The position numbers were made by a program, and so were the translations under genes. A model generated the notes under the pieces. That model was given only the letters and a program-made list of their open reading frames with translations, had not been told where the DNA came from and searched no databases. Shown here in pieces: positions 1-13,450 of a DNA stretch of 20,080 bases. Source of the DNA: a virus; the IMG/VR virus record IMGVR_UViG_3300045918_000200, positions 1 to 20,080 of that record; one strand, 5' to 3'. Position 1 is the stretch's first letter. Each line of letters begins with the position of its first letter.

Positions 1-47
1 CCGAGATTCAACGACCACACCCCCGCGGCCGAGTAGTCGTTCCAACC
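1..47 (-). other. Start of putative DGR variable region (VR), cut by window edge
   Basis: The gene's last visible bases encode GWNDYSAAGVWSLNL. The codons AAC GAC TAC stand side by side, as expected if AAC codons of a template repeat had been changed only at adenines. The final 60 bases hold 39 G/C, higher than the surrounding gene. Known variable regions end in a W/F-x-L-x-L stretch followed by a GFR-like motif, and that part lies outside the window. No template repeat is visible, so this is an inference from protein pattern and composition. Confidence 0.6.
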
Positions 48-1775
48 CGAGCCGGAGATCGGGCACAGCTCGTTCACCAGCGCCTGATAGAGCTGGTCCT
101 GCCCGAACTGGGTAGTGCCAGATGCGCCCCAACCGCCCGCTACAGGTAGCCCTGCTCCTGCTTTTGCCCACTCTGTGCCAGATGTAGCTGCGCTGAGAAC
201 TGGGTTCGAACCGCTACCGAATCGCTCATAATTCGCGTTGTTTGGATAGGTTGTGAGGAATGGGAAGGTGATGGCATCAAATTGCGCTGCGACACCAGTA
301 GCTCCCCAGTGGTCAGTAGACAATGTATTGCCACTGGTCACGTTCTTCATCGCCACACTGGTCTTTAATGCGTACAGCGTACCGTAGCGTGATGTCCCGC
401 CAGAGGTGTAAGCAGCGAATGCGGTTGAGTTAACCCCATCCAGTGTGAAGTTGTCGGCATCAACAACGGTGGCTGTGAATAATTTACCATTCAGCTCCAC
501 CATGCCGACGATGTTGAATATCTCGACTACAGCACCCGTGACCAACCCATGGCCAACTGAGGTGATCTTGCACGGGCTTGCCTGTGTCGCTGCGGTGATG
601 GTTTTGGATACGCCGATGCAGTTCAGGCCAGGGGTGATCTCCCATATATTCCCGTTCAGATCGGCGATGCCAGAGTTCTGACCGTTGTGGGTGGTCTTGG
701 CAAATGGTAGACCGCTGCCTGTCTGCCCGCAGTTAGGGTAGCCATCAGTGGTATAGACAACAGTTACATCACTAGCGTCGTGCAGAGCATTATTGTTGTT
801 GCCTTTGGGGAAGTTCGCCCCCACTTGATACCACGCGCAGTAGGTCGTTGCTGTTGAGGCGTTAGCATGTGCCAGCGCCAGCAATGCCAGTGCGGAATAG
901 ATGAATCGGCTACTTGGGAAGAACGATGCGCCGCGTGTCTTGCAGGCCGCAAAGGCGCTGGCGTAGATATTGGATGGAGCGCCAGTCAGCCCGCTGAATG
1001 GGTTGTGCGCTGCATTGGATGAAAGCGGGTTGCCATTCTTGAGTGACGACGCGGTACCTGCGTTGTTGCTAACCTGGTACTTGTCTACCATTACCCCGCG
1101 CTGTACCACACCACCATCATAGAACGCACGGTGCAAGGCATAACCCTCTGCCACTGCATGAGCAGCGGATGCATAGGCCGACTCTGGCTTGATGTCTACC
1201 AGGTTGGCGGCTAGGCCGTTCGTTCCATCGCCGTATTTGTAGAAGAACGCTGGCACCCATACCATCACCGAGCCGTCGCTGTAAGTATAGTTTCCGTAAT
1301 TGTCAGTTGTTGGGTCTGATGTGCCTGCCATTGGTGTAAATCCAGCAGGTAGTGCCGGACAGATACCAATACCAAAACCTTGAGTGCCAACCCTTCCGAT
1401 GTCATTTACGGCAAGCCTTATCCAGCGTGGATCGATGAATCCATTAGCATCTGCAAGCGGAATTTTTCCGGCAGAGGGTGTGAGTGATGCTGTTCCACCC
1501 GTCACTACGGCCGCTGCTGAGGCTGCTGATGCAGCCGCCTCGGCGGCCTTCTGAGTTGATACAGCTGCGCTGGCGGTAGAGGTAGATTGTGCAACCTGTG
1601 CCGAAACTGCACTTGCAGCAGCATTCACTGCTATTTGCTGGTTGTACTCCGCATCCGCCTTTTCGGCAACACGGTTCACTTCTGCCTCTAGCGTGACCGC
1701 ATCTGCCATTAGGGTAGTCCTGAGAGTAGCTCCGGAGGGTGCAGATGGAAGTGTTTTTGTTTGTAATGTGATCAT
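1..1775 (-). CDS. Tail fibre with C-type-lectin-like fold, probable DGR target (partial, C-terminus off window)
   Basis: This frame is open from an ATG at 1775 to the window edge: 591 complete codons with no stop. An AAAAGGAAA ribosome site lies 7 bases upstream. Residues 1-92 are Ala/Ser-rich with a likely coiled stalk, and a fibre-like segment with IPLADANGFIDPRW follows near 104-117. From about residue 120 the protein resembles phage variable-lectin proteins: SDGSVMVWVPAFFYK, VDKYQVSN (230-237), then GIADLNGNIWE (369-379), the G-x-x-D-x-x-G-N-x-W-E signature of the FGE/C-type lectin fold. Residues 392-460 form an inserted E1_FCCH-like domain. The last visible residues (574-591) read SGSGWNDYSAAGVWSLNL, typical of the start of a DGR variable region. 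The likely role is receptor binding at the tail tip. It is the last structural gene seen, 15 bases after the hub gene. The fold is well supported; the DGR link is inferred from family resemblance. Confidence 0.85.
   Translation of the reverse strand, partial: MITLQTKTLPSAPSGATLRTTLMADAVTLEAEVNRVAEKADAEYNQQIAVNAAASAVSAQVAQSTSTASAAVSTQKAAEAAASAASAAAVVTGGTASLTPSAGKIPLADANGFIDPRWIRLAVNDIGRVGTQGFGIGICPALPAGFTPMAGTSDPTTDNYGNYTYSDGSVMVWVPAFFYKYGDGTNGLAANLVDIKPESAYASAAHAVAEGYALHRAFYDGGVVQRGVMVDKYQVSNNAGTASSLKNGNPLSSNAAHNPFSGLTGAPSNIYASAFAACKTRGASFFPSSRFIYSALALLALAHANASTATTYCAWYQVGANFPKGNNNNALHDASDVTVVYTTDGYPNCGQTGSGLPFAKTTHNGQNSGIADLNGNIWEITPGLNCIGVSKTITAATQASPCKITSVGHGLVTGAVVEIFNIVGMVELNGKLFTATVVDADNFTLDGVNSTAFAAYTSGGTSRYGTLYALKTSVAMKNVTSGNTLSTDHWGATGVAAQFDAITFPFLTTYPNNANYERFGSGSNPVLSAATSGTEWAKAGAGLPVAGGWGASGTTQFGQDQLYQALVNELCPISGSGWNDYSAAGVWSLNL
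396..602 (-). other. E1_FCCH-like domain inserted in the fibre's lectin fold
   Basis: Residues 392-460 of the fibre begin TITAATQASPCKITSVGHGL and continue with a V-V-E-I-F-N-I-V-G-M-V-E-L-N-G stretch. They end in F-T-L-D-G-V-N-S-T-A-F-A-A-Y-T-S-G-G. This order (GHGL, then G-M-x-x-L-N-G, then D-x-x-x-F-x-L-x-G-V, then Y-T-S-G-G) matches the small beta domain usually labelled E1_FCCH in phage tail proteins. It sits between the GNIWE signature and the variable region. Its role is unknown; an extra surface module or ligand contact is plausible. Confidence 0.6.
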
Positions 1776-1790
1776 TGTATTTTCCTTTTG

Positions 1791-4784
1791 TTATCCGATT
1801 ACTTGAGAAATGAAGCAACCCTTTCCGCCATTGGTTGATATGCCTATTGCGCTTGAATAATTAGCGCCTGGCAGACCGCCAGATATATTTACATTCGCTT
1901 CAAGTACCGCCATCACTGATAGGCCATTGCTATTTTTTTCCGCTAATGCAATAAAACTCCCGCCGCCGCCGCCACCGTTATGAATTGATCCGTCGCTACC
2001 TGATAAATTTACAAATCCCTGCGTCAAATAAATTCCGCGACCAACCAACATTAGTCCAGCACCTGAATCGCCGCCACGAAAATACATATAAATATTAAGG
2101 TCTGTCCTCCATAATCCCCCAGCTGCCTGCCCGCCAGTCAGAACGGTCGGAAGACCAATCATATTGATCATAGACCCCCCAGATTGGGTGCCTCCAACGC
2201 TGATGATTGGAGTCGCATCAAATATTGGTGGCGCTCCAAATAGAGTTTTATTAACGGGTGCAAGAAATGGGTTGTTTGAAAGTCCATTCCCGCCGTATCC
2301 GCAAAAACCTTTTGTGCTTCCAATATATTCTGAAATATTGCGAGCTGTAGATTGTGAAATTGTAGTTCCTGCACCTACTACCCCACGACCTGCACCATCT
2401 ACTATCCCATTGATGGTAATTACCCCAAGCGAAAAGATTCGCACCGTTCCATTAATAGTGCAGGTACTTCCTAGTGGTAGGGTGACGTTTCCGTCATACC
2501 AGTAATCGCCTGCTACAAAGTTATACCCGTTTGGGATGGTATGGGGTCCACCTACCGCTCCATGAGTGGTTATTTTTGTGCCGACCTGGTATGCGCTATC
2601 TGCAACTGCTGGGGGTTGATATGTTGGTGTTACAGGGGTTGCTACCACAACTGTTGTTGGGGATGATGCAATAGCACTTATAGTCTCAGTCGCAGTGATA
2701 TTAGTCGTACCGTTGGCTACAGCGGTGATTACTGCCGCCGCGCTAGGGCCGGCAGGAACGGTAGCGACCGCAGGATTACTCGATGCCCAATTGAATGTTT
2801 TTCCGTTCAGTTGGTCACCTGCCACATTGCGCGCTAGTGCAGTGGCTTGTTGGGTTTGGGTGGCTGAAATACTTATGGCGGATGGGCTTATCGTCACGCT
2901 TGCTGTGGTGCCGCTGACAGCTGCTGCAGTCACGGTGACCGCAACGGTATTAGATACTTTAGATCCTGCCACTGCGGATACAGTGCCTGTACCAACTGCT
3001 CCTGCGGTCACCAACCCTGTTGTATTAACGCTTACATTACCTGTAGAGATCCATGAGATCGCTGGGGTGGGCACCTGCATTCCTGTGGCATCAAAACTAC
3101 GCGCTACTAATTGCTGCGTTCCTGTTGTTTGGATGCTGACAATGTTAGGTGATACCGCGATGCTAGCCACCGAGCCAACTCCTTGAAACCAGAAGTTTGC
3201 CAGCTCGGGTTGGGCGATGCATTGGATAGTGACTTCACCAGTTGTAGGGACTAGCTGGGTAGATAGAATCTCAAAAGCGCGGTCCAGAGGTGAGCTTGTA
3301 AATATATCTCTAATTGGTAGTGTGACACGCACCAAATCGCCAATCTCCATTTCACCCATCTTTGGTAGCAAGGTGAGGCTGATCTGCATTGGTGGGCGTG
3401 AATAGCGCGCCAGTACCCGTTGGAAGCGTTGGTAAAGTTGGTCTACGTATTGAGAGCCTGACGGTACGCCTTGCGCCACATATTTAAGTTGCTGCGCATC
3501 TCCCCATTTTTTAACGCTGGCAGAGTCAATAAATAGAGTTGATCTAATATATTTTCCGCTTAGTTTTGGATATTCATCGTAATCGATCCATAGCTGATTG
3601 GCCAGCGTTTGGTAGTTGTAGTTCAGATCACCCCACTTCACCACATTGTTACGGTCAAGCGTCACTGCGCAATTCTCTTTGATTGCATTCCCGATGTCGT
3701 TATAAGCGCGGATGCTGTACTTTCCGTCGCCGCGCACAAATCCAAACGATCCAATGATTTTATGGATGCTATCTTCAATGAATTTTTTCCCGCTCACGCC
3801 CTTATTGAGAATGAATTCAAACTGTAGGCCATCTCCAGGTGCCGGGGTGGTGGCGCTCAATCCCGTAAGTAGTTGTCCTACTTGTAGCCAGTCAGCCTCG
3901 GCGACATCGTTAATGCTATCCATACCGCATCCCCAGTGCGCTGGGTAGGCATCATAAGCACCGTTGGCGCCTGCTACCCCAGATGACTCCATGATCTTCA
4001 GCATCATGGTGATTGGGTTTTCATAAAGGTAGATTATTTCATCTACTTTTGTACCTATGGAATGCGCTGCGGCAGTAGTGCCAAATCTCCCGCGATCAGG
4101 TGCGGCCACGGTGAAGCTATTAGCGGCGGCTACCGTCCAGCGCATGATTTCATCGTCGATCTTGATAAATCCACTGGCGCCATAATTGGTTGATGTTGAT
4201 AGCTTGAAATTGCGCGCATCCTGTACTGCAAACGTCACTGCACCACTCGCAGAAATCGTTGCATTTGTTGTAGTCTGAAATGGGTTGAAGATGGTCTTTT
4301 TCAACTGCGTCTGCACATCCGCAGCGGTAAGTGTGTATTCATTCAGGGCAGATAGCTTAAGGTCTTGCACCTGCATGGTTCGTACCAAAACACGATCTAC
4401 CCAGCTCATCCCCTTGAACATCTTAAAGATGCTCACGCGCTGACGGCGTAGCCCATGCCCAACTGTATCAGCGGCTTTGATAATGTCTGACACCATGCCA
4501 TCATAGTCGGTCACTACCATGCTGATATTACCGATGGTGCTAACACCATTGATTGGGTCAACCTGTTGTGACATCGATCCGATGCTGTTGGCTTTCAAGA
4601 CTGGAAACCATTTTGCAGGGTATGGAAAATCTGAAATATCACTCACGTCGCATGTAGAGAAGTAGATGTCATTGGTCCCATCTACACCCGATGCGCCGCT
4701 ATTAAAAAACAACTCAGCCACATAGACTGGCTGTTTTGAAAGCGCTGTATTTTTTGCAAGGTAGGCTGAATTAGTGGCAAGCAT
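1791..4784 (-). CDS. Tail tip/central hub protein with Ig-like domains and glycine-rich adhesin
   Basis: This 997-residue protein sits where lambda J sits, after the tape measure and one small tip gene. Residues 1-530 look like a tail hub, with segments such as VYVAELFF, SIFKMFKGMSWVDRVLVRTM and EMEIGDLVRVTLPIR. Residues 540-620 and 628-716 are two bacterial Ig-like (Big_2-type) domains: each opens with V-x-x-x-x-I-S/V-I and carries a W-x-S/T core (SWISTGNVSV; NWASSNPAVATV). Residues 730-997 are a beta-rich, glycine-rich tip containing six consecutive glycines (937-942), like adhesin ends of other phage fibres. The ATG at 4784 directly follows the previous stop and has only a weak Shine-Dalgarno site, suggesting coupled translation. 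The hub role rests on position and general pattern; the Ig domains are clearer. Confidence 0.75.
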   Translation of the reverse strand: MLATNSAYLAKNTALSKQPVYVAELFFNSGASGVDGTNDIYFSTCDVSDISDFPYPAKWFPVLKANSIGSMSQQVDPINGVSTIGNISMVVTDYDGMVSDIIKAADTVGHGLRRQRVSIFKMFKGMSWVDRVLVRTMQVQDLKLSALNEYTLTAADVQTQLKKTIFNPFQTTTNATISASGAVTFAVQDARNFKLSTSTNYGASGFIKIDDEIMRWTVAAANSFTVAAPDRGRFGTTAAAHSIGTKVDEIIYLYENPITMMLKIMESSGVAGANGAYDAYPAHWGCGMDSINDVAEADWLQVGQLLTGLSATTPAPGDGLQFEFILNKGVSGKKFIEDSIHKIIGSFGFVRGDGKYSIRAYNDIGNAIKENCAVTLDRNNVVKWGDLNYNYQTLANQLWIDYDEYPKLSGKYIRSTLFIDSASVKKWGDAQQLKYVAQGVPSGSQYVDQLYQRFQRVLARYSRPPMQISLTLLPKMGEMEIGDLVRVTLPIRDIFTSSPLDRAFEILSTQLVPTTGEVTIQCIAQPELANFWFQGVGSVASIAVSPNIVSIQTTGTQQLVARSFDATGMQVPTPAISWISTGNVSVNTTGLVTAGAVGTGTVSAVAGSKVSNTVAVTVTAAAVSGTTASVTISPSAISISATQTQQATALARNVAGDQLNGKTFNWASSNPAVATVPAGPSAAAVITAVANGTTNITATETISAIASSPTTVVVATPVTPTYQPPAVADSAYQVGTKITTHGAVGGPHTIPNGYNFVAGDYWYDGNVTLPLGSTCTINGTVRIFSLGVITINGIVDGAGRGVVGAGTTISQSTARNISEYIGSTKGFCGYGGNGLSNNPFLAPVNKTLFGAPPIFDATPIISVGGTQSGGSMINMIGLPTVLTGGQAAGGLWRTDLNIYMYFRGGDSGAGLMLVGRGIYLTQGFVNLSGSDGSIHNGGGGGGSFIALAEKNSNGLSVMAVLEANVNISGGLPGANYSSAIGISTNGGKGCFISQVIG

Positions 4785-4785
4785 A

Positions 4786-5307
4786 TTAATTCAGCGCGAA
4801 GGTTGGCACAGTGGATGGAAATTGCACCGTAGGCAATTGCATCAGGTCGAAATCGAACTGCCATAAATATTGAGAACCCATACGCTTTGGGTCGATGCGT
4901 TGCGAAGCAACACAGCTGAAATATTCAGTTGGGTATAGATCGAAATCTGGATACCAATACATAAGCGTACCCGCCATCAGCTCTTCATTCAGTGCGGCCA
5001 TGATGGCGTATTCATTTACTTGTGCATTGCGGTTTTCAACTACGTTTTGAATCGAAAACCTAAATCCTTTAGTCGAACCAAAGTTTGTCACCTCAACTAC
5101 GCCAGCTGCACTGCGCGATACATTGCGTTCATCTTTGTAGTATGGATCACGTGATGAATATCCCCAGTACAAAAACAAATCTTGCTGCTCTCCCAGCGTC
5201 ACCAGTGGATCGACAATGTTAGGGATCGCGCTGAAATCTGCCACCGTCAAAGGTGACTGGCGGGGCGTACTCGCTTGAGTGGTGAGGTAGGTTAGGCGGC
5301 CTCTCAT
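4786..5307 (-). CDS. Tail tip/distal tail protein (hypothetical)
   Basis: This 173-residue protein starts at an ATG that overlaps the tape-measure stop in an ATGA (5304-5307), so its translation is probably coupled. It holds the place of lambda M/L, between tape measure and hub. It is soluble, with no signal peptide or membrane segment, and is rich in aromatics in its second half (LMYWYPDFDLYPTEYFSC, then YLWQFDFDLMQLP), which suggests a beta-rich tail protein. I do not recognise a specific family. It is the only gene between tape measure and hub, where lambda has four, so it may combine roles of a distal tail and adaptor protein. The gene is certain; the function is inferred from position. 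Confidence 0.7.
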   Translation of the reverse strand: MRGRLTYLTTQASTPRQSPLTVADFSAIPNIVDPLVTLGEQQDLFLYWGYSSRDPYYKDERNVSRSAAGVVEVTNFGSTKGFRFSIQNVVENRNAQVNEYAIMAALNEELMAGTLMYWYPDFDLYPTEYFSCVASQRIDPKRMGSQYLWQFDFDLMQLPTVQFPSTVPTFALN

Positions 5308-7439
5308 GCTGGCACCGCCAACATCTGCGCCTGACGGCTGCGCGGGTCGATGATGGTGACATCTGCATTCGTAATCTGGTTCTTGATCTCTGGGATGACG
5401 GTGTTAGCCACAAAATCTTCGGTCATCACATTGCCACTGATATATACATTCACCGGTTGTGCGACAGGCTGTTGCACTTGAGCCTGTGCGCTCACTTGGT
5501 TTGGATTGGCAGTTTGCCCAGGTACAGCTGAAGATGAAACGCCGCCTGCGCTGGGCGCCGATCCTGCGCTGGCACCGCCGCCAAAGCTAGCTGAATTGAT
5601 CGCGTTGATCTGCACAAGTTGTGAGGCCAGTGCAATCGCGGCATAAGCTGCACCTACGGCAGGGCCTGCTGGGCCGCCCGCTTTCATCCCAGATTCATAC
5701 GCTGCCATCACCGTAGATGGCAGTGCGATCGCAGCTTCTGCCAATTTAGCTACTTTCATAACCTCGAATGACGCACGAGAATGTGAGGCTGATGCCATCA
5801 GGGTTTGTTGCAACATACCGGTGTAATATAAAAACTGCTGTTTTGCAGTCATTTTTTCAAACTCAGAACGTGAGAATCCGCCACGCTCTATGATGGCTTG
5901 CATCGATGCTTCATGCGCTTCTTGCGCAGAGGCTTCCATCGCCTTGGCGCGCCCGTCCTCATCGCCCTTCATGGATCGATAGTGCGCGGCCAGATTGAGG
6001 CGGTCTGTATAGGCTTTCTTTTCAATTTCCAGCGGAGACATAGAAGCCTTGTTGGCTTTGTTATCGTAAGCCGTCGCGCCACCTGCCTCATCCTGCGAAA
6101 TCTTGTTGCGGTCAAGCTTTCCTTGTATTTCAATTTCTTTCAGTTTTTCATTCTTGCTACGCGCCAGCGCTAGTTCGGCTTCAAGATAGCCACGCTCGGT
6201 TGCGAGGTCTTGCAGGGCGATTTCTTTTTTGGCTGAGTAGAATTCACGCTCACTGATCTGCATTGCAGCCAGTTGTGCATCAAGCTGCTTTACATGTTGC
6301 TTAGCATATTCGCCAGACGTTTTAAGTTCTGATTCGAGCATTGCCATCGCAGCGGAATATTGCTCATCTTTGGATTTTTTAATCGCTGCTTTGGCGGCAT
6401 CGCCATAGCCATCGAATGTTTTCTTGGCGGATTCTTGCGCAGCCTGTGTGACTTTTGGCGTGCTGTTTTCCCATACCTTGGCGATGCTATCCATATCGCC
6501 TGACATGTTGCTGACCATGGTATCGCCCATATCGCTGAGCGCATTTTTGGCGGCAGAGAAATCTCCTTGCAGGGCCAACATAATGGCAGCGGCAACGCCA
6601 CCAAATACGTTGCCCAATGCGCTAAATACACTCTTGACGATGACACCGCCTGTTACCAGTGATCTGAGTGTTACATCGAGCCCGTCTGATATTTTCTTTA
6701 GGTTGTCAGTATTGGTAGCACTATCCACCATTACCTTCGAGAGGCTGTCAAAGGTGGGAAGCATCTGCTGCATGATGGTATTGGCGATGCCTTTTCCAGC
6801 CAACCCCATTGTGGCGAATCTATCATTCACTGCTTCGGCGGCAGAGGCCGTGCTTTTGCTCAGGGTCAATCCTAGTTTATCAGCGAGATCAGCATTTTCT
6901 TTGAGGGCGGAAGAGCCCCCGTTCAACATTGGGATCATCGCCGCCCCTGATTTGCCGAAGATGTCCATCGCCAGGGCAGTCTTACCTGCCCCGTCGTTCA
7001 TCCCGGCGAAGCGGTCGGATACTTCGGCCATCACTTGGTCGTTACTTTTCAGGTGGCCGCTGGCATCTTTGATACTGATGCCCATCGCGTCAAAGGCTTT
7101 TTTACCTGTGCCGGTGCCGTCGGCAGCATCGATGATGTTTTTGGATAGCTTCCCCATACTCTTGGCCAGCGCTTCCATGTCTATATCAGACAGTTTTGCA
7201 GAGACTGACATGCGGGATAGGGCTTCGGTGCTAACGCCTGTTGATTGCGCCAGCTTGCCAATTTTGTCGGCGGCATCCAGTGAATCAACGATCATCTTGG
7301 CAAACATGCCGCCTGATAAAGCACCTGCCAGTGCAGTCACTTTGCCGTGCAGATTCTCTATGCCGACCTTGGCAGAATCAAAACCAGATTGCGTCTGGTC
7401 TTTGGCGGTGATGAGGATTTCAGCGACGTTGAGTGACAT
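5304..7439 (-). CDS. Tail tape measure protein
   Basis: This 711-residue protein sets tail length and is ejected with the DNA. The N-terminus (SLNVAEILITAKDQTQSGF, then KVGIENLHGK) is the usual start of tape measure proteins. The N-terminal third is the common domain with SLDAADKIGKLAQSTGVSTE and DIFGKSGAAMIPML. Hydrophobic segments lie at about 259-290 and 558-612. Residues 350-450 are charged and probably coiled coil. A low-complexity Gly/Ala/Ser/Gln stretch (617-662) precedes a C-terminal VYISGNVMTEDFV segment seen in other tape measures. At about 0.15 nm per residue the tail would be near 107 nm, an estimate only. It starts 1 base after the chaperone extension stop. Confidence 0.93.
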   Translation of the reverse strand: MSLNVAEILITAKDQTQSGFDSAKVGIENLHGKVTALAGALSGGMFAKMIVDSLDAADKIGKLAQSTGVSTEALSRMSVSAKLSDIDMEALAKSMGKLSKNIIDAADGTGTGKKAFDAMGISIKDASGHLKSNDQVMAEVSDRFAGMNDGAGKTALAMDIFGKSGAAMIPMLNGGSSALKENADLADKLGLTLSKSTASAAEAVNDRFATMGLAGKGIANTIMQQMLPTFDSLSKVMVDSATNTDNLKKISDGLDVTLRSLVTGGVIVKSVFSALGNVFGGVAAAIMLALQGDFSAAKNALSDMGDTMVSNMSGDMDSIAKVWENSTPKVTQAAQESAKKTFDGYGDAAKAAIKKSKDEQYSAAMAMLESELKTSGEYAKQHVKQLDAQLAAMQISEREFYSAKKEIALQDLATERGYLEAELALARSKNEKLKEIEIQGKLDRNKISQDEAGGATAYDNKANKASMSPLEIEKKAYTDRLNLAAHYRSMKGDEDGRAKAMEASAQEAHEASMQAIIERGGFSRSEFEKMTAKQQFLYYTGMLQQTLMASASHSRASFEVMKVAKLAEAAIALPSTVMAAYESGMKAGGPAGPAVGAAYAAIALASQLVQINAINSASFGGGASAGSAPSAGGVSSSAVPGQTANPNQVSAQAQVQQPVAQPVNVYISGNVMTEDFVANTVIPEIKNQITNADVTIIDPRSRQAQMLAVPA

Positions 7440-7440
7440 G

Positions 7441-7803
7441 TCAGTTCTCGTTTATTTTTTCCACAATCGCCAGTTCCATCGCGCGGATGTCTTCAAATAC
7501 TTCAGGCGCATTTTCAATACTGTGAATGCGCAGGATGCTTTCTAACGCGCTGTAGTCAATCCCGCATATCTGTTCGCGTTCGCCGTTTCTGCGATACCTA
7601 AATTGAGTTGTGCAACGTAAAAAAATACCCAGCGCAATGTTGTTCTCAGGCCAAATTTCAAATGATTCTTGTGGATTTCCTACCGCTTCCTGCAACAATT
7701 CCAAAGGGATTCCATAACGGGCTGCATCCTCTTCAATTTGTGTATTTTGCTCTGCTGCATTTGTTGCGCCGCCACTCAACCAATGGAGAGCGGCGGCAAT
7801 TAG
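7441..7803 (-). CDS. Tail assembly chaperone extension (gpT-like, DUF1799-type), made by -1 frameshift
   Basis: This is the 120-residue part read in the -1 frame after the slippery site, giving a fusion of 229 residues with the upstream chaperone. It starts LIAAALHWLSGG, and later has ESFEIWPENNIALGIFL, CGIDYSALESILR and FEDIRAMELAIVEKI, the pattern of DUF1799 phage proteins. A TTG at 7779 could in principle start it, but no Shine-Dalgarno site precedes it and the frame is open back to the slippery site. As with lambda GT, the extension should recruit tail tube protein onto the tape measure while the shorter G-like product coats it. It ends at a TGA one base before the tape measure start. Confidence 0.82.
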   Translation of the reverse strand, partial: LIAAALHWLSGGATNAAEQNTQIEEDAARYGIPLELLQEAVGNPQESFEIWPENNIALGIFLRCTTQFRYRRNGEREQICGIDYSALESILRIHSIENAPEVFEDIRAMELAIVEKINEN

Positions 7804-10336: not shown

Positions 10337-11626
10337 TTACACTGTCAGGCCATCGGTCATCACTGCGAAGCACGCTGGGTTGCGCACTGCGAAGTCGATG
10401 AACTGGTTAGCAGTTAAACGGTACTGACCGCTCGATGCCAAGGTGTACGGATCCACAACAATGTCCAAACCACCGAACAAAGCCAACAGCAGATTCGACC
10501 AGTCGCTTGAAAATGCCAACGAGCTAGTGACGCCAGCTGCTGTTCCTTTGGTGCCGTTGCTGACCATATTGTTGGTCACGCCAGCACGGTAGCCATTGAG
10601 CGGTTGTGCACCGTTGTCCCACAAGAAGTTAGGGAATGTGGTGCCGACCTTAGGTTGTGTCTTCGCCCAGCCGCGAGTCTTGGTGTTGATGATGTAGCCA
10701 GCCAATTCGTCAGGCTCGGCGTTGGCATTCGCGCAAGCGGATTCCAGACCAACCAAGTGCGACCAAGTAACCTGTGCGCCGTTGGTGCCGCCCACTACAG
10801 CGCCGATACCAGCCTGATTGATCAAGCCGCGTGGTTGTGGTGCAGTACCTGTACCATTGATACCGAAGTTGTCGATCATCACTGCCAAGCCAGCAGAGAG
10901 ATCGGCATACAACATCGCATCGACATCCAAGCTGGATTGGATCAGTGCCTGCTTAGAGTAAGGGATGGTGCCGCCGACGCGTTTTGGAGAGAGCGAGATT
11001 TGGGTGGTAGTTGGATTGGTGTCCGTGAAGGTCGCTAGTTCAGTTGCATTCTGCAAAACAGAAGCCGCAGATTTACGTGGAATAGCGATGTTGGATGTCA
11101 GGCCGCCCAAGATACGGATGCCCATCTTGTTCAACACAAGCGCATTACGCAATACATCTACGAATTCGCCACCCAGTACAGACGTTTGCACCAGATTGCC
11201 CGCATTGCCAGCTGTCGCCACATCAAACGCACGTTGTGCACGTTGCGCTTGAATACGGTTGGCGATTTCAGCGGGAACGAAGAAGCCTTCAGGCGACATT
11301 CCGGTGCGTTTAGAGACGGCTTCCGATGCAGCTAGCTCAAGACCTGCATTTTTCCAGTCTTTGTTTGCGGCAGCATGGATTGCACGTGCGAGTGAATATT
11401 CACGTGTCTCATCGCTGTTCATACCGATGTTGATGTCGTTTGTGTTGCTATGCTTGGTCGTGATCTTATCCATGATCGCATTCTGGAATTCAGAAACGGT
11501 CTTGCCGGATTTGATGTACTCGCCAACCAACTTGTCAGCACCATACTTGGTGTATGTTTCGGACAGCGCGAGCAAATCTGCTACGCGTTTTTGCTCGGCT
11601 TGCAAGCCTTGATTTTCTTCAGCCAT
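10337..11626 (-). CDS. Internal start product: major capsid protein alone (429 aa)
   Basis: This is the in-frame nested product of the protease-capsid gene, starting at Met227. Its ATG has AAAGGAAA centred about 10 bases upstream, a better site than many true gene starts in this operon. The product would contain the delta/scaffold region and the capsid, the usual size of an HK97-type precursor. It would let the phage make many capsid subunits for each protease-carrying one, as lambda does for Nu3 inside gene C. The start is inferred from sequence; the product has not been shown. Confidence 0.75.
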   Translation of the reverse strand: MAEENQGLQAEQKRVADLLALSETYTKYGADKLVGEYIKSGKTVSEFQNAIMDKITTKHSNTNDINIGMNSDETREYSLARAIHAAANKDWKNAGLELAASEAVSKRTGMSPEGFFVPAEIANRIQAQRAQRAFDVATAGNAGNLVQTSVLGGEFVDVLRNALVLNKMGIRILGGLTSNIAIPRKSAASVLQNATELATFTDTNPTTTQISLSPKRVGGTIPYSKQALIQSSLDVDAMLYADLSAGLAVMIDNFGINGTGTAPQPRGLINQAGIGAVVGGTNGAQVTWSHLVGLESACANANAEPDELAGYIINTKTRGWAKTQPKVGTTFPNFLWDNGAQPLNGYRAGVTNNMVSNGTKGTAAGVTSSLAFSSDWSNLLLALFGGLDIVVDPYTLASSGQYRLTANQFIDFAVRNPACFAVMTDGLTV

Positions 11627-12304
11627 GATAGCTTTCCTTTCGATGATTACGATGGGTTCGGGTTGTACTGCTGGGGTCGCCGGTTCCACCTGGCTGGGTG
11701 CGGCTGCTACTCCCGTAGCGGCTGCTCTGCCAACACCGACCGAGGTGTCAGCAGGGATAGATACGATGGAGATTTCAAACGGAGTCCACTTGGTGACGCG
11801 GAAAACAGGATCGCTATCAGCCGCTTCAGATTTGGCTGCGCGGGTGGCGAAGTTTTCGCCGTGCAATTCTTTTTGACGTGCTTCAAACTCTGCCCAAGAG
11901 AAGCGGCGCAGTTGGCGATCTTCGCCTTCGCCATCATCTGCTTCCAACTCATCGATCATGTAACCAACCGATACCAGTGAGCGAATACCATCTTGTACGT
12001 CTTGAAAAATCTCATTCGCTAGTTGGCCACGGCCAAAGCGCACTACAGCACGACCTACTTTGTCGGTGTCGATTTGGGCGGTATCAATAACGCCGATCTG
12101 ATCTTCAGTATCGTGATTGAGCAATAAAGGATGGCGGCCATCGGCAAGGCGCGATAGATCACATGATCCGGGTGCATGGTCCAGGATCTCGATGCCGAAC
12201 CAACGTTCGTAAGGGGCTTCGCTGCTGAATGCCAGAGGCACGGTACGGGTCGTCACATTAATTGTGCCGTCGCGGGTGATGTTGAATTGGCGTTGGAATT
12301 TCAT
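10337..12304 (-). CDS. Prohead protease-major capsid fusion protein (HK97-type)
   Basis: This 655-residue protein joins a prohead serine protease (about 1-195) to an HK97-fold major capsid protein. The protease part has VPLAFSSEAPYERWFGIEIL, the LLLNHD motif with probable catalytic H64, and SLVSVGY with probable catalytic S112. It closes with KWTPFEISIVSIPADTSVGVGR. A Pro/Ala linker (195-220) leads to residue 227 (AEENQ), a charged scaffold-like delta region, and then the capsid, which ends with FGGLDIVVDPYT and YRLTANQFIDFAVRNP. I chose the ATG at 12304 because an AAAGGATG site precedes it; the longer in-frame start at 12355 lacks one. A second start at 11626 can give capsid alone. In lambda and HK97 these functions are on separate genes. 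Confidence 0.93.
   Translation of the reverse strand: MKFQRQFNITRDGTINVTTRTVPLAFSSEAPYERWFGIEILDHAPGSCDLSRLADGRHPLLLNHDTEDQIGVIDTAQIDTDKVGRAVVRFGRGQLANEIFQDVQDGIRSLVSVGYMIDELEADDGEGEDRQLRRFSWAEFEARQKELHGENFATRAAKSEAADSDPVFRVTKWTPFEISIVSIPADTSVGVGRAAATGVAAAPSQVEPATPAVQPEPIVIIERKAIMAEENQGLQAEQKRVADLLALSETYTKYGADKLVGEYIKSGKTVSEFQNAIMDKITTKHSNTNDINIGMNSDETREYSLARAIHAAANKDWKNAGLELAASEAVSKRTGMSPEGFFVPAEIANRIQAQRAQRAFDVATAGNAGNLVQTSVLGGEFVDVLRNALVLNKMGIRILGGLTSNIAIPRKSAASVLQNATELATFTDTNPTTTQISLSPKRVGGTIPYSKQALIQSSLDVDAMLYADLSAGLAVMIDNFGINGTGTAPQPRGLINQAGIGAVVGGTNGAQVTWSHLVGLESACANANAEPDELAGYIINTKTRGWAKTQPKVGTTFPNFLWDNGAQPLNGYRAGVTNNMVSNGTKGTAAGVTSSLAFSSDWSNLLLALFGGLDIVVDPYTLASSGQYRLTANQFIDFAVRNPACFAVMTDGLTV
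11624..11640 (-). promoter_or_regulatory. Internal ribosome-binding site in the protease-capsid gene
   Basis: The minus strand reads AAAGGAAAGCTATCATG. The AGGA core is 8 bases from an ATG in the same frame as the fusion. It falls exactly at the junction between the Pro/Ala linker and the capsid precursor, which is where a separate capsid gene would start. Confidence 0.8.
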
Positions 12305-12361
12305 AGTTGAATCATCCTTTCTTAGGTGCAACATTTTCACGGGCGGAAGTTGCAATCTTTT

Positions 12362-13450
12362 TCAAGCTACTAAGAGCCACGCTTCTTCAGCTGCGCGGAT
12401 TTTTTGTGGCCTCACAAATCGTTTTATTTTTACGATACCTAATACGCCGACCGCATTACATTGCGCATCCTCAAGCTGTATGGATGCGGATGCATTGATT
12501 GTTTGGTAATAAGTGGGGCGTAGATAGATCGGGCTGAAATAGGTGTTTTTACTACTGCCGCCGGTCTTGGGTCGGTACACCAAGGCCGTCGCAAAACACT
12601 CGGCATCATCTAGCGTGATGTCTGCACTGGCATTGATCGCTGCATAGCCAGAGCCACTGGTGGCAAAAGCACCAGCCTGCGTATCATCCAGTGTGATGCT
12701 GGCAGTGGCGTTGATCGAGAGTGAGGAGGTGGATATGCACGCCAGATCGTCCAGCGGGATAGAGGCGCTGCCATCGAGTGCGAGTGAGGCTGATGATACG
12801 GTGGTGGCATCCTCAAACGTGATGGACGCTATCGCTGTGATGGCTGGCGTACTGCTGACCGTGCCAGATGCGCTGAGAGAAGCATCCCCCAGAGTGATAC
12901 TGGCAGTGGAATTAATCGAGAGTGATGCAGTGGATGCGCACGCTATATCATCCAGCGGAATAGAGGCGCTGCCATCGAGCGCGAGTGATGCAGATGATGC
13001 AGTTGTGGCATCCTCCAGCGTGATGGCCGCTGTCGCTGTGATGGCGGGTGTACTGCTGACAGTGCCTGATGCGCTGACAGTTTCATCCTCCAGCGTGATA
13101 CTAGAAGTGGCATTGATCGAGAGTGATGCGGTAGATACGCACGCCAGATCGGCTAGCGGAATAGAGGCGCTGCCATCGAGCGCAAGTGAGGCTGATGATA
13201 CGGTGGTGGCATCCTCTAGCGCGATAGCCGCTGTCGCTGTGATGGTAGATACACCGCCGCCGCTATCGGCAGCTTGTAACATGCCGCCGCCGCGCAACCA
13301 GTCCCATTGGGTCCATGGTGCGGGTGGTGCGTTAAAACTTACATCGTAGCTTCTGCCATCATTCAGTGACCAGGCATTGGTTGCGGGTGCGGCTTCAAAC
13401 GCGACCAGTATTGCCCGACCGTCGAGTAACGACCAGACGTTCTCTGCCAT
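12362..13450 (-). CDS. Repetitive beta-rich accessory virion protein
   Basis: This 362-residue protein lies between a small CxxC protein and the protease-capsid gene. Residues 1-45 hold two copies of a W-S-L-x-D-G-R-x-x-x-V-x-F-x-A-x-P-A unit. Residues 70-270 are three 67-residue repeats, each made of three about 21-residue motifs of the type I-x-A-x-A-S-I-x-L-x-D-A-x-x-x-S-x-A-S-L. Two looser copies follow (INASADITLDDAECFA; INASASIQLEDAQCNA). The C-terminus is basic (VKIKRFVRPQKIRAAEEAW). Similar A-S-I-T-L repeats occur in uncharacterised phage virion proteins. It starts 2 bases after the upstream stop with no clear ribosome site, so its translation is probably coupled. I do not know its function; a fibrous or surface decoration is a guess. 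Confidence 0.8.
   Translation of the reverse strand: MAENVWSLLDGRAILVAFEAAPATNAWSLNDGRSYDVSFNAPPAPWTQWDWLRGGGMLQAADSGGGVSTITATAAIALEDATTVSSASLALDGSASIPLADLACVSTASLSINATSSITLEDETVSASGTVSSTPAITATAAITLEDATTASSASLALDGSASIPLDDIACASTASLSINSTASITLGDASLSASGTVSSTPAITAIASITFEDATTVSSASLALDGSASIPLDDLACISTSSLSINATASITLDDTQAGAFATSGSGYAAINASADITLDDAECFATALVYRPKTGGSSKNTYFSPIYLRPTYYQTINASASIQLEDAQCNAVGVLGIVKIKRFVRPQKIRAAEEAWLLVA
12641..13243 (-). repeat. Three tandem 201-bp coding repeats
   Basis: The units are 13043-13243, 12842-13042 and 12641-12841, with no spacer. They are nearly the same at DNA level over most of their length; for example, all three carry the codons for SSASLALDGSASIPL in almost identical bases. 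The third diverges at its end. Each unit contains three shorter related motifs of about 63 bp, so the array grew in two steps. Confidence 0.9.

Follow-up and report, generated by a model that had tools for sequence, protein, structure and literature searches.

A phage contig that ends within the probable variable repeat of a tail-protein diversity-generating retroelement

The left edge of the window, the 20,080-nucleotide stretch of viral DNA analyzed here, lies with a probability of about 95% inside the variable repeat (VR) of a diversity-generating retroelement (DGR) of the Bordetella phage BPP-1 type. The target would be a tail lectin, with the accessory gene avd, the template repeat (TR), and the reverse transcriptase (RT) directly downstream, where they are found on a second contig, L008 (IMGVR_UViG_3300045918_000398, 12,969 bp). 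At the level of sequence, the target, the VR, the TR, Avd, the RT, the adenine-only differences, and two VRs in otherwise identical sequence are all in place. This confirms a sequence-only reading of the first 60 bases, which had proposed that a tail protein enters a DGR variable region at the edge; window positions 1 to 68 are the first ~68 bases of the VR. Other contigs can thus confirm an inference made on 60 raw bases. The tail DGR is of a well-known kind, and the added interest lies in a second DGR on L008.

The tail protein of the window, with its predicted FGE-type C-type-lectin fold, ends in a VR of ~115 nt, and avd, an invariant TR, and the RT follow directly downstream on L008. By analogy with BPP-1 and its relatives, copying of the template RNA would be error-prone at adenines, and the resulting cDNA would replace the VR (retrohoming). 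This replacement would change solvent-exposed residues of the lectin surface, so that a probable receptor-binding site would exist in numerous versions across the phage population, with the potential for a change of tropism. The arrangement resembles that of BPP-1 (mtd-avd-TR-brt) in the order of target with VR, avd, TR, and RT, in having a tail protein as the target, in the adenine-specific differences, and, within the target family, in a GRNA-loop hairpin just after the VR. Unlike in BPP-1, the target is longer and has an FCCH-like insert, and the hairpin stem of the window clade holds a GA/GA step within a covarying outer stem.

The window record and its target protein

The virus record is exactly 20,080 bases long and therefore holds no sequence to the left of the window edge, which is the end of the record and lies inside the VR. 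The window is a late-module fragment of a tailed phage. It starts with terminase gpA and a lambda-type portal, continues with a capsid gene with protease and the genes for the tail tube, the tape measure, and an Ig-domain tail protein, and reaches the DGR target gene last. No RT match was obtained anywhere in the 20,080-base record, and no further VR target was found when the window was searched for one. The head module also encodes a 362-aa protein (12362 to 13450, minus strand) with repeated units of ~40 residues (ASITLEDATT...SSASLALDGSASIPL) and without a family match.

The product of the target gene (3 to 1775, minus strand) is a tail protein with a length of 591 aa or more, an assignment based on the open reading frame, on DGR-bearing relatives, and on its place after the tape measure and the Ig-domain tail protein. 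The frame is open at its C-terminal end, at the window edge, where it reads ...NELCPISGSGWNDYSAAGVWSLNL (last residues, ...LCPISGSGWNDYSAAGVWSLNL). The motifs VDKYQVSN, GIADLNGNIWE, and CPISG, to which the sequence-only reading had pointed, are all found in this frame; its GC content of 39 of the first 60 bases was reproduced by counting, and the codons AAC GAC TAC stand at the edge as described.

Residues 121 to 591 (3 to 1415, minus strand) were assigned to an FGE-type C-type-lectin-like region from an AlphaFold2 model, a PDB match, and a profile match. The model, built on a 67-sequence alignment, has a mean pLDDT of 95.0 and a pTM of 0.93; an earlier model from seven sequences was discarded (pLDDT of 43). 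The top solved-structure match is TaqVP (PDB 5VF4; Foldseek E value of 2.4e-13), the variable protein of a DGR in a Thermus aquaticus prophage; TaqVP was also the only DGR match of the profile search (E value of 2.5e-5). The VR is thus located at the C-terminal end of a target with a C-type-lectin fold, as in known DGRs, and the earlier suggestion that the upstream region folds like a DGR target agrees with both the model and the TaqVP matches. The authors of the TaqVP structure describe an FGE-type C-type-lectin fold, and the variable residues of proteins of this type are solvent exposed and form ligand-binding sites (PMC6328139). TaqVP also shares the VR motif W-N/G-x-G-x-AG-x-x-x-L-x-L and the arrangement of avd, TR, and RT, whereas the identity is ~15% over the aligned length and TaqVP is devoid of the FCCH insert. 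The TaqVP-like fold and the position in the tail module suggest that the window protein binds a receptor.

Inside the lectin region, residues 408 to 461 (393 to 554, minus strand) match the E1_FCCH domain (Pfam PF16190, E value of 2.9e-7, over the cutoff), with Foldseek matches to E1 enzymes; the structure matches that rank after 5VF4 hit this inserted domain. Judged by length, the insert is present in most of 66 aligned relatives and absent in a minority.

Contig L008 carries the remainder of the tail DGR

The viral collection was searched with a pattern consisting of the last window bases, in which the suspected adenine positions were left open (GCGGGGGTGTGGNCGTTGNNTCTC). Six contigs matched, three of these twice at a distance of ~555 bases. 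An exact 20-base search across the window edge gave no match; this word is missing from L008 because its VR has a C where the window has an A. Against the phage collection, a DNA-level search with the window returned no match, and a protein search returned partial, distant matches only.

L008 starts with 117 bases that are identical, silent sites included, to the invariant stretch preceding the VR in the window (69 to 185, minus strand; 117/117) and then enters the VR, for a total overlap of ~183 bases. The contig presents the VR, Avd, the TR, and the RT in this order on one strand, within ~1.8 kb of the VR, so that the template, accessory protein, and RT predicted to lie left of the edge are all present. 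Avd (136 aa, 12300 to 12710) was identified as the expected avd-like gene by Pfam PF22296 (bAvd; 63.9 bits against a cutoff of 40) and PHROG 3206, “Avd protein of DGR”; with NCBIfam DivGenRetAVD it scores 72.9 bits, slightly below the cutoff of 80. The TR lies at ~12184 to 12298. The RT (327 aa, 11064 to 12047) matches PF00078 (60.5 bits, cutoff of 29.6) and the PHROG reverse transcriptase (E value of 8.9e-101) and carries the motifs IGNLLSQ and YVDD. An RT near the target, as in DGRs generally, and an Avd accessory protein, as in BPP-1-type elements, are therefore found on L008. This RT also matches models of antiviral RTs and of group II intron RTs; these matches, below the cutoffs where such exist, were taken as general RT homology.

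In L008, the TR lies inside an open frame (12044 to 12322, minus strand). Such a frame is frequent in the family: it opens at the repeat or slightly upstream of it, following a GGGAGGCNTCTTAAYATG-like stretch, and its end overlaps the start of the RT gene in ATGA. L001, L004, L006, L007, L073, L144, L145, L150, and others share this arrangement; the frame is fused to the RT in L087, L090, L091, and L129 and closes early in other loci. Translational coupling or constraints on the RNA may account for it.

Differences are confined to template adenines

Alignment with the TR and VR of L008 places the 5′ part of the VR (~68 of ~115 nt; residues 570 to 591 plus two bases) at window positions 1 to 68 on the minus strand, where it is cut by the record end. 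Base 68 also differs from the template and was excluded from the counts as a repeat-boundary base. Over the remaining 67 bases, seven positions (47, 46, 35, 29, 28, 2, and 1) distinguish the window VR from the L008 TR; all seven are template adenines, and none of the 53 non-A positions is mismatched. The hypergeometric chance that 7/7 differences fall on the 14 adenines is 4e-6. The window VR and the L008 VR differ at nine positions, again all at template adenines (chance of 5e-8), and over 112 nt the L008 VR is mismatched with its own TR at 14 of 29 adenines and at 0 of 83 other bases. Both the near-identity of TR and VR and the confinement of differences to template adenines that mark a DGR are therefore present in the window as well as in L008, and the near-copy differing only at adenines that the sequence-only reading had foreseen exists. 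The motif at the window edge is not a chance occurrence, judging from the recurrence of the same non-A letters in the TR. Variation of the VR in the population is seen on two contigs with two VRs, that is, as two versions.

At the codon level, TAC, GCC, GGT, and the last GG of the window VR derive from AAC or AAT template codons. The derivation of GCC from AAC proposed from the window alone was right, while that of GAC was wrong: the template reads AAC GAC AAC, and GAC is therefore templated.

Weighing against a DGR at the window edge are the location of the RT and TR on another contig, joined to the window by the ~183-base overlap alone, and the availability of only two VR versions of the window’s virus. 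We see a slim chance for the following alternative: the protein belongs to the DGR lectin family, but the retroelement was lost or is elsewhere in the window’s phage, and L008 is a recombinant or sister phage whose shared sequence is limited to the end of the tail gene. The RT-free window record and the short overlap would fit this, as would some relatives in which the target end is VR-like but the record contains no RT, such as the 63.9-kb L005. However, the bases preceding the VR are identical even at silent sites, when the next relatives after L008 have ~60% protein identity. Moreover, the adenine-only differences imply that the window VR was rewritten from the L008 template or from one equal over these bases. 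In addition, a single contig, G006, joins a terminase 69% identical to that of the window with an integrase region 92% identical to that of L008, which at the sequence level is an independent link between the two halves. Scarcely credible is an ordinary, non-diversified tail lectin that resembles DGR targets through shared ancestry and differs through normal divergence: although no RT was detected nearby in 43 of 89 family loci (many cut by contig ends), normal divergence would hit other bases too, silent sites first, and the exclusive location of the seven template and nine between-contig differences on template adenines already contradicts it, unless both contigs were misassembled alike.

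Contig ends at the variable repeat

With a DGR at the window edge, the ends of the two contigs may themselves be explained, since they lie where a hypervariable site would break assembly. Short-read assemblers often work with 127-base words. From the L008 start to the first disagreement with the window there are 126 shared bases, and if the assembly branched at the first adenine that varies, contigs would be cut at about this point. Among 68 distinct relatives (from the best 80 matches), 36 contigs end within 4 kb downstream. Eight of these 36 ends lie in the interval from 30 bases upstream to 210 bases downstream of the VR start, a density of ~3.3 per 100 bp in this interval versus ~0.7 elsewhere; selecting the best 80 matches disfavors contigs that stop ahead of the VR but not those that stop beyond it. 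In viral databases, the point at which a contig ends can be a marker of hypervariability.

Relatives of the target and the hairpin downstream of the VR

More distant relatives with complete DGRs include L001, L004, L006, L007, and L009. The A-favoring scan for TR/VR pairs was repeated with neutral scoring to avoid circularity. In 40 distinct family pairs, mismatches occur at 682 of 1,152 template adenines versus 61 of 3,435 other bases, which bears out the expected enrichment of A-site variation in relatives. The non-A mismatches are more common at template T (34/990) than at C (14/1,133) or G (13/1,312).

A first protein scan of bacterial genomes gave no relative. An alignment-based scan gave 66 loci with the target, 42 of them adjoined by an RT, and TR/VR-like pairs were obtained from 40, nearly all adenine biased (L156 is not). 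The target family, a lectin mostly with the FCCH-like insert, is widely distributed among phages and in proteobacterial genomes, and most of its members are linked to a DGR. Since the closest bacterial-genome relatives are mainly beta- and gammaproteobacterial, with the best match in a Thiobacillus metagenome-assembled genome (MAG), a betaproteobacterial host is a reasonable guess. In L005, a VR-like target end (~3506 to 3628) and a hairpin are present, but the entire record is without an RT match and the locus without an Avd; this is either an orphan VR or the target of a DGR acting from elsewhere.

Hairpins with GC-rich stems of 7 to 10 bp and GRNA loops have been found downstream of phage VRs (Guo et al. 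2011, PMC3240598). Such a hairpin just after the VR is found in relatives, and the window ends before that point. L001 (CCCCGCCC-GGTA-GGGCGGGG), L104, and L116 fit the published consensus. In L008, the post-VR hairpin (~12700 to 12735, minus strand) reads GAGC-GATA-GCGA, with GATA in an interrupted stem, in contrast to the perfect consensus stems, and clade relatives are alike. From its sequence, this element possibly contains sheared GA pairs. Read by eye, the outer stem covaries, being GTCC/GGAC in L008, GGCC/GGCC in L007, and GCCAT/ATGGC in L083.

A second DGR on L008

L008 carries a second DGR, likewise complete (4967 to 7491, plus strand), that adjoins an HTH protein and an integrase. It comprises two small targets (4967 to 5314 and 5347 to 5739) with VRs matching a template at 6291, an Avd (5771 to 6139), and an RT of 466 aa (6091 to 7491), all on the plus strand. 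Over 91 bases, the template differs from the two VRs at 14 and 15 of 33 adenines and at no other base.

It is possible, though by no means assured, that the phage is temperate and has two complete and independent DGRs: one for the tail lectin and one on the integrase side with its own RT, Avd, template, and two small, maybe prophage-expressed, targets. If true, the virion surface and a lysogen-expressed protein would be diversified by separate machines, and the phage would allow a study of whether diversification is under separate control on the virion side and on the lysogen side. The Quimbyviridae gut phages likewise combine a virion-linked and a probably nonstructural DGR target in one phage, with one RT described for two target loci (PMC8008677); in contrast, L008 has two RTs and two different templates for separate targets. 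In the papers searched, no phage with two separate RT systems was found, which is weak evidence of novelty.

Fifty-nine viral contigs carry the RT type of the second DGR, in most cases accompanied by Avd and small targets. Among 50 records with this type, only two have a second RT, L008 and G042. G006 combines the second-DGR type with its window-like terminase and has one RT only. G042 (L152, 2446 to 5206, and L052) has a tail DGR together with the second type, and its tail DGR is mismatched at 14 of 28 adenines and at 6 of 91 other bases.
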